Source: Paracoccaceae bacterium (GTDB taxonomy: Bacteria > Pseudomonadota > Alphaproteobacteria > Rhodobacterales > Rhodobacteraceae). From it: a stretch of DNA of 64,000 nt. This document shows, one piece after another, positions 14,478 to 18,258 of this stretch. A program made the position numbers and the translations under genes. The notes below the pieces were generated by a model. It made no database searches. It was not told where the DNA came from and saw nothing but the letters and a program-made list of their open reading frames with translations. Position 1 is the stretch's first letter. Each line of letters opens with the position of its first letter. The stretch is taken from positions 434,001 to 498,000 of the forward strand of contig JALHOL010000001.1 of the NCBI GenBank assembly GCA_022843025.1, written 5' to 3'.

Positions 14478-14915
14478 TTAGCGGTCCAGACCCAGTTGCC
14501 GGTCCAGCGACAACCGCCCCGGCCCGGCCACGATCAGCGCAAGGAAGCAGGCGGCCCACAGCCCATGCGTCTGCCAAGCACCGGGATAGACGAAAATCTG
14601 GATCACCGCCGTCATCGCCAGCAGACCCAACGCCGAAAGCCGCGTGCACAGGCCCAGCACCAGAAGGGCGGGCAGCACATGTTCCGCCACCGTCGCCGCT
14701 ACGGCGGCGATGTCGGACGGGATCAGCGGCAGGGCATATTCATGCTGAAACAGGAACCATGTGCTGTCGGCAATGCGCCAGCCATCCAGCTTGGTCTGGC
14801 CCGAGGCGAAGAACACCGCCGCCGGAAAGATCCGCAGAGCCAGTGCCGCCGCATCCCAGGGCAGGCGGGCCAGCTTGCTGTTGATTTTCCTGATGAATAC
14901 CGTCGTCTTGGCCAT
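14478..14915 (-). CDS. DoxX-family membrane protein, last gene of the bufferin operon
   Basis: A 145-residue DoxX-family protein with four hydrophobic segments ([21 protein letters not shown] is the typical first one). DoxX proteins commonly accompany DUF692/DUF2063 pairs in bufferin clusters, where a quinone-linked or membrane-associated redox role is suspected but not proven. The ATG is preceded by AAGGATAGATC and lies three bases after the upstream stop, so it is co-translated with the DUF2063 gene. Function here is inferred from operon context. Confidence 0.88.
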
Positions 14916-14918
14916 GAT

Positions 14919-15674
14919 CTATCCTTGTTGCGCGATCCCGGTGATCGCCCCCGCCCGCATCAGAATTGCCAGCAGGCGCGCGGGATCTGCGCCTTCGGCC
15001 CGTGTTGCAGCGTCAAGCAGGGTTTCGCCGCGCATCAGCGCGGACTGAAACCCTGCCTCACCCGCAGACAGGGCGATGACCGGCACCTGATCGGCGCGGT
15101 CGCGCAGGACCAGCGCATCCTCGGCCCGGTCGGCGCGCAGCGGCCCGGTCTGCGCCGCGCCCGGCTGGTTGGCCTGCCAGATCGTCACCACCGCAAGCCG
15201 CGACCGGATCAGCCCGACCGACGGGTGCAGCACCAGCCTGAACCGCGCCGGATCAGCCGCCGCCTGCGCCAGATCGGTGGCGGCCACCGATGGCACATCC
15301 GCGGCGTGATAGGCCAGACCGCGCTGCCATTCCAGCCGGGAAACATCGGGCAGATAAGCCAGCGATCGCACCGGGGGAAACCCCTGCAGAAACCGGGCAA
15401 ACCCCTCACCCCAAAGGAAAAGCTGCGGAGAGGCGGGGGGATCGGCTTCGATGTAGAGCCGCGCCATGGCGGTGAAGAACTCCAGCCCCACCAGACGCTC
15501 CACCACCGGAAAGCGGCGGGCAAGCGCGCGGGTCAGGCTGTGGGCCACGTTGTTGCGATAGACGGCAAAGCGCTGGGCGGCCTCATCCGGGGCCTGCGCA
15601 GTTACGCCGGGCGGAAGGGCGCCGTTGAACAGGCCTGCGCGGAAGGCGCGGGTGAATTCAGCATGCCTGAGCAT
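14919..15674 (-). CDS. bufC: DUF2063 protein, BufC-type partner of the MNIO maturase
   Basis: A 251-residue protein of the DUF2063 (putative DNA-binding domain) family. The N-terminal module has [29 protein letters not shown], the standard motif of these proteins. In bufferin clusters the DUF2063 protein is thought to bind the precursor and present it to the DUF692 enzyme, rather than act on DNA. The gene overlaps the maturase gene by 17 bases, and GAGGTGCACC precedes the ATG. Assignment as BufC rests on family and on its place between bufB and the DoxX gene. Confidence 0.9.
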
Positions 15675-16506
15675 GGTGCACCTCGGCCCGGGTCAGGATG
15701 TCGGCGGCGCGGGCGGCCTCGGCCAGCAAGATGGGAAAGTCGGGAACATCATTGTCCCATTCGATCAGCGTGGGCAGGGCACCCGCGCGGGCGATGGTCT
15801 GGCTGTACAGCGCCCAGACCGGATCGGCGACCGGGCTGCCATGATCGTCGATCAGCAGGGGGCCAGAAGGCAGGGCCTCGGTCGCGTGCCCGCCCAGATG
15901 CACCTCGCCCACCGCATCGAGCGGGATGGCGGCCAGCCAATCCTGCGGGTCGGTCCGGTGGTTGGTGCAAGAGACGAAGACGTTGTTCACATCCAGCAGA
16001 AGGCCACATCCCGTGCGGCGGGCGATTTCGGCCAGAAACTCTGTCTCGGCCAATGTGGATTGGGCAAAAAGCACATAGGTCGACGGGTTTTCCAGCAAGA
16101 GCCTGCACCCCAATGTGGCCTGCACCTCATCCACATGGTCGCAGACAAGTTGCAGCGTCTCGGGCGTGTAGGGCAGGGGAAGAAGGTCATTGAGGTAGTC
16201 CGACCCATGGCTGGACCATGCCAGATGTTCGGAAAAACTTTCGGGTTGATAGCGGTTGATCAGATCGTGCAGGCGTTTCAGATGGGCGGCATCGGGGCGG
16301 TCCGGGCCGCCGATGGACAGGCCCACGCCATGCAGCGAAAGCGCATAGTCCTGCCGCAGCGCGGTGAGTTGTCGATGCGGCGGGCCGCCTGCGCCCATAT
16401 AGTTTTCGGCATGCACCTCGAAAAACCCCAGCCGGGGCCGGGTGTCTCGGATGGCGGCGAAATGTTCGGCCTTGAAGCCGAGGCCGGGGGCGGCGGGCAG
16501 GGGCAT
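15658..16506 (-). CDS. bufB: DUF692 (MNIO) multinuclear iron oxidase, bufferin maturase
   Basis: A 282-residue TIM-barrel protein of DUF692, the family of MbnB and BufB, multinuclear non-heme iron-dependent oxidases that modify cysteines in ribosomal peptides. Candidate metal ligands are in [43 protein letters not shown] and IEWDND. It should convert precursor cysteines to heterocycles (thiooxazoles are reported for bufferins). I chose ATG at 16506, which gives the usual family N-terminus ([10 protein letters not shown]); a GTG frame to 16554 adds 16 Pro-rich residues. It lies directly downstream of the precursor gene. Confidence 0.92.
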
Positions 16507-16567
16507 GGCGGGCAACCTTGGATAAGGGAAGGGGCCGGGGCGGGGAAGCGCCACCCCGGCGCCGTGA

Positions 16568-16843
16568 TCAGGATTCGATCGCTTCGAGCGAGCCCATGCC
16601 GTTCGGGGTTTCCATCGTCACGCAGGTGCCGGCCGGAACGAGTTTCCACGCGTTGCCCTGATAATCGGTGGTCGAGGTGCCAGCGCAGGTGGTCCCCGGT
16701 CCGGCGGCGCAATCGTTTTCACCCGCAAGCGCCACGCCATAGCATTTTTCCATCCCTTCCTGAGCGTGGGCGGTGGCGGCGGCCATGGTCAGGGCGGCGG
16801 CCAGCGTTGCGGTCAGGGTGAGGGTCTTGTCGAACATGGTCAT
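16568..16843 (-). CDS. bufA: Bufferin precursor, BufA1-type (DUF2282) 4-Cys peptide
   Basis: A 91-residue precursor. A Sec signal peptide (residues 1-27, ending ATAHA) precedes a mature part with four cysteines at 34, 45, 53 and 74 in the BufA1/DUF2282 pattern [14 protein letters not shown]...TTCAG...VPAGTC. Unlike most RiPPs, bufferins carry an N-terminal signal peptide and are exported. They are known to bind copper after cysteine modification by the DUF692 enzyme. The ATG is preceded by GGAGAGACCC. The gene is first in a four-gene operon and divergent from sigF. Substrate metal here (Cu, possibly other soft metals) is inferred from the family. Confidence 0.92.
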
Positions 16844-16923
16844 GGGTCTCTCCGTCTGTGAACTTGGGTTTGAACCTTTGGCTGTACTTGAGCCAAGGAC
16901 CGTTGTGGTCCTCGGTAAGTCCA

Positions 16924-16949
16924 TTCGCGGCGGGGATGGCGGGCGTTAC
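16924..16949 (-). promoter_or_regulatory. Predicted SigF promoter of the bufferin operon
   Basis: On the minus strand GTAACG (16949-16944), 16 bases, then CGAA (16927-16924). This matches the GTAAC(C)/CGAA bipartite pattern I recall for Caulobacter SigF. The -10 lies about 80 bases upstream of the bufA ATG, leaving a leader of about 70 bases. Confidence 0.7.
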
Positions 16950-17039
16950 CGGTGATCACGGATCGGTGTTCAAATTGGAAAAACGGATCCGAAGGCTTTG
17001 CGTTTCCCAAACATTTGCAGAAGAATTTGCGCTGTCGCT

Positions 17040-17065
17040 GTAACAAAGGGCCAGTGCGCCGCGAA
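17040..17065 (+). promoter_or_regulatory. Predicted SigF promoter of sigF-nrsF (autoregulation)
   Basis: GTAACA (17040-17045), 16 bases, then CGAA (17062-17065): the same pattern and spacing as the divergent bufA promoter. The -10 is only 12 bases before the chosen sigF ATG (17078), so the transcript would have a very short leader, or the true start is slightly downstream (ATG at 17084). Confidence 0.65.
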
Positions 17066-17077
17066 GGGACCATCGGA

Positions 17078-17620
17078 ATGACGATGCGTGAAGCCGAATG
17101 GTCAGCGTTGCTGCGGGCAGCGATGGAAGGGGACGGGCGCGCCTATGCCCGCTTCCTTGGGCTTGTCACGCCAGTGCTGCGCGGGATTGTCCGGGCACGC
17201 GGGCGTGCGTTGGGGCCGGAAGGACAAGAGGATGTGGTGCAGGAGGTGTTGATCGCGATTCACACCAAGCGCCACACCTGGGACCAGTCGGCGGCGCTGT
17301 TGCCGTGGCTTTATGCGGTGACGCTGCACAAGGTGGTGGATGCGTTCCGGCGCAGGGGGGCATCGATCCACCTGCCGATTGACGATTACGCCGATGTGCT
17401 GGAGGCAGAAGCTGTGCCGGATGCGTTGGCGGCGCGGGATAGTGCGGTGCTGATCGGGCAGTTGGATGCACGGTCGGCGGCGATTGTGCGGGCGGTCAGC
17501 CTTGACGGGCAAAGCACCGCCGAGGTGGGCGCACGACTGGAAATGTCGGAGGGGGCAGTTCGGGTGGCTTTGCATCGCGCGATCCAGCGGATGGCGCGGC
17601 TGGCAAGAGGAATGGAATGA
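17078..17620 (+). CDS. sigF: ECF RNA polymerase sigma factor, SigF type
   Basis: A 180-residue ECF sigma factor. Region 2 spans roughly residues 10-80, with DVVQEVLIAIHTKRHTWD as region 2.2 and the AFRRRG stretch after it. Region 4 spans 120-175, with the helix-turn-helix EVGARLEMSEGAVRVALHRAIQRM. The stop overlaps the nrsF start (ATGA). Linked nrsF and a divergent bufferin operon are the hallmark of SigF of Caulobacter, which responds to heavy metals. Transcription from a promoter like that of bufA suggests positive autoregulation. Confidence 0.9.
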   Translation: MTMREAEWSALLRAAMEGDGRAYARFLGLVTPVLRGIVRARGRALGPEGQEDVVQEVLIAIHTKRHTWDQSAALLPWLYAVTLHKVVDAFRRRGASIHLPIDDYADVLEAEAVPDALAARDSAVLIGQLDARSAAIVRAVSLDGQSTAEVGARLEMSEGAVRVALHRAIQRMARLARGME

Positions 17621-18258
17621 TGAAGACGGAAGACCTGATCGGCATTCTGGCGGCGGACTCCGCCCCGCCCGCGCTGCTGCGTCCTAAGCGGATTGCGGCG
17701 GTGGTGCTGGTCGTGATGGCTGTGGCGGTTGCGCTGTTTCTGTGGCGGTTCGGCATTCGCGACTCGGTCCTGCAGGCGATGACGCGGCCGCAGGTGGCGG
17801 CGAAGACGCTGCTGCCGCTGGCGCTGTGCGCCATCGCAATGCCCTTCGCGCTGGTGCAGATGCGCCCAGGCGCGGTGCGGGTGGTGCAGTTGCGCTGGTT
17901 GGCGGTGCCGCTGGGCGTGGCGGCGGGGCTGTGGCTCTGGGCTTTTGCGACGCTGCCGCAGGAAGTCCGGTTCGCCGAGGTGTCGCCTTTTTCGCTTAGG
18001 GAATGTCTGGGCCTGATTTCCGGCCTGTCGTTGCTGCCCTTGGGCGTGCTGCTGCTGATGATGCGGCGGGGGGCAAGTGCCGCCCCGGTGCGGGCGGGGG
18101 CGATGGCGGGGCTGGGCGTGGCCGGCGGGATCGCGGCGGGTTATTCGCTGTTCTGCGTGATGGACAATCCGCTGTTCTATGTCACCTGGTATGGCGTGGC
18201 GATTGCGGCTGTCACGGCGTTGGGTGGCCTGGCGGGCGGGTGGTTGCTGCGCTGGTAG
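17617..18258 (+). CDS. nrsF: NrsF-type (DUF1109) membrane anti-sigma factor
   Basis: A 213-residue protein with six predicted membrane segments after a short cytoplasmic N-terminus that would hold the sigma factor. Cysteines fall at 71, 130 and 180. The 130/180 pair has the 50-residue spacing of the two cysteines reported as essential for metal sensing in Caulobacter NrsF. Binding of chromate, cadmium or copper is thought to release SigF; the actual inducer here is unknown. It is translationally coupled to sigF. High Ala/Val/Leu content is typical of the DUF1109 family. Confidence 0.9.
   Translation: MMKTEDLIGILAADSAPPALLRPKRIAAVVLVVMAVAVALFLWRFGIRDSVLQAMTRPQVAAKTLLPLALCAIAMPFALVQMRPGAVRVVQLRWLAVPLGVAAGLWLWAFATLPQEVRFAEVSPFSLRECLGLISGLSLLPLGVLLLMMRRGASAAPVRAGAMAGLGVAGGIAAGYSLFCVMDNPLFYVTWYGVAIAAVTALGGLAGGWLLRW

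Follow-up and report, generated by a model that had tools for sequence, protein, structure and literature searches.

A bufferin-1 operon divergent from a SigF/NrsF pair in a Paracoccaceae genome, with a CenR-type dyad as a candidate second input

Bufferins are copper-binding peptides, and the nearest known counterpart of the locus treated here is the bufferin-1 cluster CC3252-CC3257 (CCNA_03273, 03362-03366) of Caulobacter crescentus/vibrioides. This cluster is reported to depend on the sigma factor SigF by microarray, quantitative reverse transcription PCR and promoter fusions, with promoters mapped by 5' rapid amplification of cDNA ends, a SigF consensus of GTAACC-N16-CGAA (Kohler et al.), and an anti-sigma factor, NrsF, in which substitution of Cys131/Cys181 raises SigF-dependent expression (PMC3511200). 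Buf1 clusters are described with sigma and NrsF genes; the inner two cysteines of Buf1 are modified and the outer two disulphide-bonded, and the Caulobacter peptide binds copper via thiooxazoles (PMC12452194), products that are also supported for the MNIO enzyme class (PMC13097082). Here we describe a locus of this kind in a stretch of 64,000 nucleotides (the window) from a Paracoccaceae bacterium (GCA_022843025.1, contig JALHOL010000001.1, positions 434,001 to 498,000; G000:C1:434001-498000 in our numbering), whose genome comprises 3.9 Mb in 22 contigs and is 99.99% complete. The window very probably carries a Buf1 operon, bufA1-bufB-bufC-doxX, under its own SigF/NrsF switch, a reading with which the protein families, the spacing of the cysteines, the order of the genes and the paired promoters are all consistent. 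The genes, their families, the cysteine pattern and the promoter motifs are read directly in the window, and their conservation is followed below across the family.

Each of the six proteins at 14478-18258 exceeded the Pfam gathering cut-off of its family (Table 1), and the assignments made in the sequence-only reading (DUF2282 precursor, DUF692, DUF2063, DoxX, an extracytoplasmic function [ECF] sigma factor and NrsF) are thus upheld, including the DUF2282 match of the 91-residue precursor, on which that reading had staked its case. From 16843 down to 14478 on the minus strand, the genes follow in the order bufA1, bufB, bufC and doxX, divergent from sigF-nrsF on the plus strand (17078-18258), which is the layout that had been proposed; bufB and bufC overlap, sigF and nrsF overlap by 4 bases, and only 3 bases lie between bufC and doxX. 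BufB also scored 382.5 against a cut-off of 310 for the bufferin-maturase model of NCBIfam (NF050167 MNIO_BufB). The narrower NCBIfam equivalog models stayed under their cut-offs for NrsF (53.5/300), BufC (HvfC, 39.3/142) and DoxX (HvfX, 51.6/80), and no NCBIfam model matched BufA. The ATG at 16506 (282 residues) is the more likely start of bufB than the GTG at 16554, which opens a longer frame, because the N-termini of relatives agree at the former in the alignment; sigF is read from 17078 (180 residues). The closest named maturase, with 79% identity, was that of Gemmobacter lutimaris in one contig scan, from which records very near the window may be omitted.

The cysteines of both the precursor and the anti-sigma factor were found where they had been noted. 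BufA has Cys34, 45, 53 and 74 behind a hydrophobic N-terminus, judged by eye to be a putative signal peptide ending near residue 27 (between AHA and QE), and NrsF has cysteines at 71, 130 and 180, the 50-residue spacing of the Cys130/Cys180 pair matching that of C131/C181 in Caulobacter. Among 149 genomes of the family, DUF2282 was present in 106 and an NrsF match in 23 (22 over the cut-off), and one bufA stretch per genome was examined (n = 106). The 11-8-21 spacing of the BufA cysteines was retained in 105 of these 106 loci (101 exactly and 4 with extra cysteines further upstream), and a cysteine pair 50 residues apart was present in all 12 recovered NrsF frames, 2 of the 14 SigF-linked loci having yielded no such frame. 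The sole exception to the BufA spacing (L149, in genome G130) is a diverged DUF2282 gene with two cysteines only and no BufB match beside it; that genome has the strongest NrsF match, which lies on another contig. At two other loci, L066 (G007) and L105 (G100), bufferin precursors occur in tandem, as a pair of DUF2282 matches separated by a few hundred bases.

A SigF-type promoter faces each of the two divergent operons. The Caulobacter motif with one changed base occurs twice in the window against 0.08 expected, and 0 of 100 shuffles contained two copies. SigF-linked loci amounted to 14 of the 106, with sigF upstream of bufA within 2.5 kb in 12 and downstream of the operon in 2 (L106 and L145). 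Of these 14 loci, 13 had the motif in the 300 bases ahead of bufA, as did 5 of the 92 other loci; the reversed motif gave 0/12 for loci with SigF upstream and 1/94 for the remainder. Several observations nevertheless weigh against control of the operon by its own SigF/NrsF switch. The sigF-side motif ends 12 bases before the sigF ATG, overlapping the likely ribosome-binding site and leaving almost no leader, although a short leader is possible because a start site at -7 has been reported for CC2907 in Caulobacter (PMC3511200). The motif is not enriched genome-wide (12 sites versus 18 for the reversed pattern), so that only its position and conservation carry weight. Among named genomes (77 of 80 named loci with a BufA match, SigF being counted only beside the locus), the link between motif and SigF is weaker, at 24/36 SigF-linked loci versus 11/41 others, with the reversed control at 2/36 and 1/41. 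In Caulobacter itself, sigF shows no strong autoregulation when metals stress the cells, its promoter depends on SigF only in part, and a section heading of the same paper calls SigF, CC2906 and CC3255 non-essential for metal-stress resistance (PMC3511200).

Table 1. Features of the bufferin locus, in positions of the window (aa, amino acids).
Feature	Position	Strand	Evidence
doxX, DoxX-family membrane protein, 145 aa	14478..14915	-	Pfam PF07681, 66.7 bits (cut-off 23.6)
bufC, DUF2063 partner protein, 251 aa	14919..15674	-	Pfam PF09836, 82.5 bits (cut-off 27.2)
bufB, MNIO (DUF692) maturase, 282 aa from ATG 16506	15658..16506	-	Pfam PF05114 (MbnB_TglH_ChrH/DUF692), 352.2 bits (cut-off 25)
bufA1, DUF2282 bufferin precursor, 91 aa	16568..16843	-	Pfam PF10048, 91 bits (cut-off 22.4), E = 4.6e-26
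SigF-type promoter of buf operon, GTAAC (16945-16949), N17, CGAA (16924-16927)	16924..16949	-	motif match
Putative CenR-type dyad ACACCGATCCGTGA (ACACC-GATC-CGTGA), 8/10 consensus positions	16956..16969	-	6 bases upstream of buf-side GTAAC
SigF-type promoter of sigF, GTAAC (17040-17044), N17, CGAA (17062-17065)	17040..17065	+	motif match
sigF-like ECF sigma factor, 180 aa	17078..17620	+	Pfam sigma-70 region 2, 31.6 (cut-off 24); region 4, 35 (cut-off 25.7)
nrsF, anti-sigma factor, 213 aa, Cys130 and Cys180	17617..18258	+	Pfam PF06532, 122.2 bits (cut-off 26.8)

By analogy with Caulobacter, on which the sensing, modification, metal and export proposed for the window module are modeled, excess copper (or a related metal) would act at the membrane by perturbing the cysteine pair of NrsF, so that SigF would be released and would transcribe the buf genes, and probably sigF-nrsF as well, from the GTAAC-N17-CGAA promoters. 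BufB and BufC would convert the inner BufA cysteines (45 and 53) to thiooxazoles, Sec would export the precursor, the outer cysteines (34 and 74) would form a disulphide, and mature BufA would chelate copper in the periplasm, with help of some kind from DoxX. Copper is, on the same analogy, the best-supported metal, as it induces the Caulobacter cluster in either medium and in either cell type, and as a sigF::Tn5 mutant is copper-sensitive, with its sensitivity to chromate and cadmium unchanged (PMC8224329). These same data argue against a response to some other stress (chromate, cadmium or oxidants) in which copper binding by the peptide is incidental, a scenario we consider unlikely even though chromium and cadmium were the first metals linked to Caulobacter SigF (PMC3511200) and the regulon of this factor includes a methionine sulfoxide reductase system (PMC8224329).

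A wider SigF regulon in the host genome was considered and rejected on the genome-wide count of 12 sites versus 18, several of the sites lying inside reading frames. Around the three Oxidored_molyb matches of the genome, no clean SigF motif was seen, only uncounted copies with 1-2 changed bases. Two SigF-type motifs lie within 1 kb of each other elsewhere (L008/L009; G000:C5, ~22-23 kb); the frames they precede, at distances of 76 and 25 bases, resemble by eye SGNH-type and YHS-type secreted proteins, and this pairing may be due to chance.

The survey revealed that SigF linkage is the minority state among the bufA loci of this family, which is new. In a FastTree phylogeny of 105 BufB proteins (one locus lacked BufB), the distribution of SigF linkage needs 4 changes, and 11 of the 14 SigF-linked loci, including the window, form one strongly supported set, with loss and gain indistinguishable. 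The tree offers only 2 independent pairs for relating SigF linkage to the motif, too few for a test. The surroundings of the two kinds of loci also differ: thrS adjoins bufA in 77 of the 92 SigF-free loci versus 1 of the 14 SigF-linked ones, and besides thrS the SigF-free loci have one other conserved neighbor, which encodes a membrane protein about 122-124 residues long. A local regulator for the SigF-free loci was not apparent, as regulator-like frames were present in few of them (LysR-like in 11 and ArsR-like in 16, named by eye).

Upstream of bufA at SigF-free loci, we found a 34-base box in which the dyad TCACG-N4-CGTGA is repeated in tandem at a distance of 15 bases. One of the 92 loci was unusable and was set aside; in a fivefold hold-out, 72 of the other 91 SigF-free loci, but just 1 of the 14 SigF-linked loci, scored above the 99% level of dinucleotide shuffles. 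The first matrix, scored on its own training set, had given 73/91 and 2/14, and the held-out count is the figure to use. A genome search with one mismatch allowed located the box in 20 of 30 genomes, corresponding to 20 of 25 SigF-free and 0 of 5 SigF-type genomes, with none for the reversed control. In each of the 20, it occurred at one place, the bufA locus, lying upstream of bufA in 19 and downstream in one (G063).

A single dyad of the same consensus precedes the SigF promoter at SigF-linked loci. For the window dyad alone, the shuffle p value is about 0.02, and its location is common to relatives: 13 of the 14 SigF-linked loci, including the window, show a dyad that matches 8 or more of the 10 positions within 40 bases ahead of the bufA-side GTAAC, versus 0.33 expected from shuffles. 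The gap between this dyad and GTAAC is 5-6 bases in 11 loci and 15-16 bases in 2, and the sigF side gave 0/12. The dyad was spotted by eye in these loci before testing, the consensus having already been fixed on the SigF-free set. In named genomes, the dyad was present in 21 of 27 SigF-linked loci with the motif (19 at a gap of 4-6 versus 0.81 expected) and in 6 of 13 loci with the motif and no SigF beside it (1 at that gap versus 0.16 expected); by group, it was found at 11/12 named SigF loci of Paracoccaceae, 3/3 of Roseobacteraceae and 0/3 of Rhizobiaceae. The named set may overlap the 106 family loci, and it is the published CenR sites described below that serve as an outside set. The sole SigF-linked locus that is also beside thrS (L054, in G010) has the SigF motif with a single dyad and not the tandem box, and it may represent a switch from one control to the other.

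Such a palindrome might also be the hairpin of an RNA terminator or another non-regulatory repeat, with SigF alone controlling the window operon, and several exact dyads do lie elsewhere just past stop codons, for example after genes resembling (by eye) purB and xthA. At most SigF-linked loci, however, the dyad is situated between divergent genes. The 68 thrS-linked loci with the tandem box have it at a median distance of 114 bp downstream of the thrS stop and 88 bp upstream of bufA, and in 61 of these loci the following 15 bases hold no run of more than two T residues. A YTANNNT element follows the tandem box at 19-20 bases in 38 of 72 loci, and the gap between dyad and GTAAC is nearly fixed, and we consider a terminator or other non-regulatory repeat improbable.

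A further reading, which extends SigF/NrsF control without displacing it, is a second input from the envelope-stress response regulator CenR. Chromatin immunoprecipitation sequencing in Rhodobacter sphaeroides yielded 31 CenR sites, for which the authors give the pattern TGA-N8-TGA and of which 28 lie directly upstream of -35 (PMC9275681). The majority consensus of these 31 sites, TCACGnnnnCGTGA, is equal to the bufA dyad. A matrix built from the CenR sites alone exceeded the 99% shuffle level in 28 of 91 SigF-free bufA regions (0.9 expected) and in 4 of 14 SigF-linked ones (0.1 expected), with two control regions at 0/105 and 1/103. The regions upstream of sigF reached 11/14, a count that is not independent of the bufA side because divergent loci show the same palindromic site from the other gene. 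CenR would bind the TCACG-N4-CGTGA box just upstream of the bufA -35, and the SigF-free relatives would use two boxes alone at a housekeeping-type promoter. We regard this two-input arrangement as evenly balanced between right and wrong. The recurrent placement of the dyad or tandem box, the shared consensus and the presence in the host genome of a CenR-like regulator with a matching box upstream speak for it, whereas the window site is weak (a CenR-matrix score of 6.8 against a threshold of 11.3, with the dyad matching 8/10 at the conserved place), the Rhizobiaceae SigF loci are without the dyad, perfect dyads also occur past stop codons, and bufferin genes do not appear in the main text of the CenKR paper.

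The CenR-like regulator of the host genome is an OmpR-type response regulator (L362:739-1425, minus strand) with aspartates at 11-13, 51 and 56, positions that match those named for CenR (PMC9275681), and the box upstream of it, ACACGACCGCGTGA, compares with ACACGAGCGCGTGAG at R. sphaeroides cenR. It matched no NCBIfam CenR model, and it is called CenR-like by its residues and upstream box. A looser dyad pattern was found at 17 places in the host genome (20 rows versus 10 in the reversed control), of which 7 lie inside called genes. Some of the others precede genes for BamD, for a member of the beta-lactamase superfamily and for TerC, as would suit an envelope regulon. The TerC-family gene (L353) has TGACGAATTCGTGA upstream, and a second gene resembling it by eye (L261) has TCACGGGCGCGTGA on its upstream side. 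In addition, 13 of 30 fasciclin-domain matches (0.60 expected; 30 loci of 44 match rows) and 4 of 30 CCP_MauG peroxidase matches (0.32 expected; 30 loci of 48 match rows) had a dyad with at least 9 of 10 positions no more than 400 bases upstream, and these genes are possible further CenR targets. At 17 fasciclin loci, [ACG]AAC starts followed the dyad at no single fixed distance.

Since the bufA dyad equals the consensus of the published CenR sites, the CenKR envelope-stress system probably has the bufferin operons of Rhodobacterales among its targets as well, a prediction that is stronger for the family than for the window. The broader proposal, that copper-chelating bufferin is a direct output of essential CenKR across Rhodobacterales, with SigF loci joining a CenR box to a SigF promoter and most others carrying two tandem boxes, could in our estimation go either way. 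If true, it would make copper defense part of an envelope-integrity response and not a stand-alone metal module, and it would connect copper-binding peptides of a new class with a regulator indispensable to the cell envelope. The locus had initially been described as a self-contained metal-stress module; its genes and SigF wiring stand, but "self-contained" has become doubtful, as a CenR-type operator probably feeds in. Bufferin genes are absent from Table 1 of the CenKR paper, and DUF2282, DUF692, DoxX and copper are absent from its main text (PMC9275681); a 2023 CenKR sequel mentions copper only as a copper grid, the bufferin survey (PMC12452194) mentions neither CenR nor a response regulator, and among the 8 listed papers that name at least two of CenKR, bufferin, DUF692 and DUF2282, none names CenKR. 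The module is flanked by genes for a sugar-type ATP-binding cassette transporter and a ROK-family protein on one side; its neighbor on the other side resembles a glycosyltransferase gene but scored under the cut-off.

Collectively, the window shows that a Rhodobacter-type genome can carry the whole SigF-bufferin module of Caulobacter. The two clusters share the same six families in the same divergent order, a four-cysteine DUF2282 precursor, NrsF cysteines 50 residues apart and the SigF motif. The wiring of SigF/NrsF to a bufferin is thus already known from Caulobacter and is not a discovery; the sequence-only reading is a good annotation of a known module. Differences are also apparent, as SigF of Caulobacter controls another operon (CC2907-CC2905) and msrPQ besides, whereas the host genome contains a single match each for DUF2282, MNIO and NrsF across its 3.9 Mb and no clean SigF motif was seen around its three Oxidored_molyb matches. 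The window also has a putative CenR-type dyad upstream of bufA, a feature read at the sequence level on this side of the comparison only. The gold-induced genes (GIG) clusters of Cupriavidus metallidurans and Legionella pneumophila are named in the literature as being of the same kind, and are likened to the window by description only. In the CenKR regulon of R. sphaeroides, 28 of the 31 sites lie directly upstream of -35 (PMC9275681), as the dyads do at the bufA loci here, and for the majority of bufferin operons in this family, which have no adjacent SigF, CenR is a specific candidate regulator.

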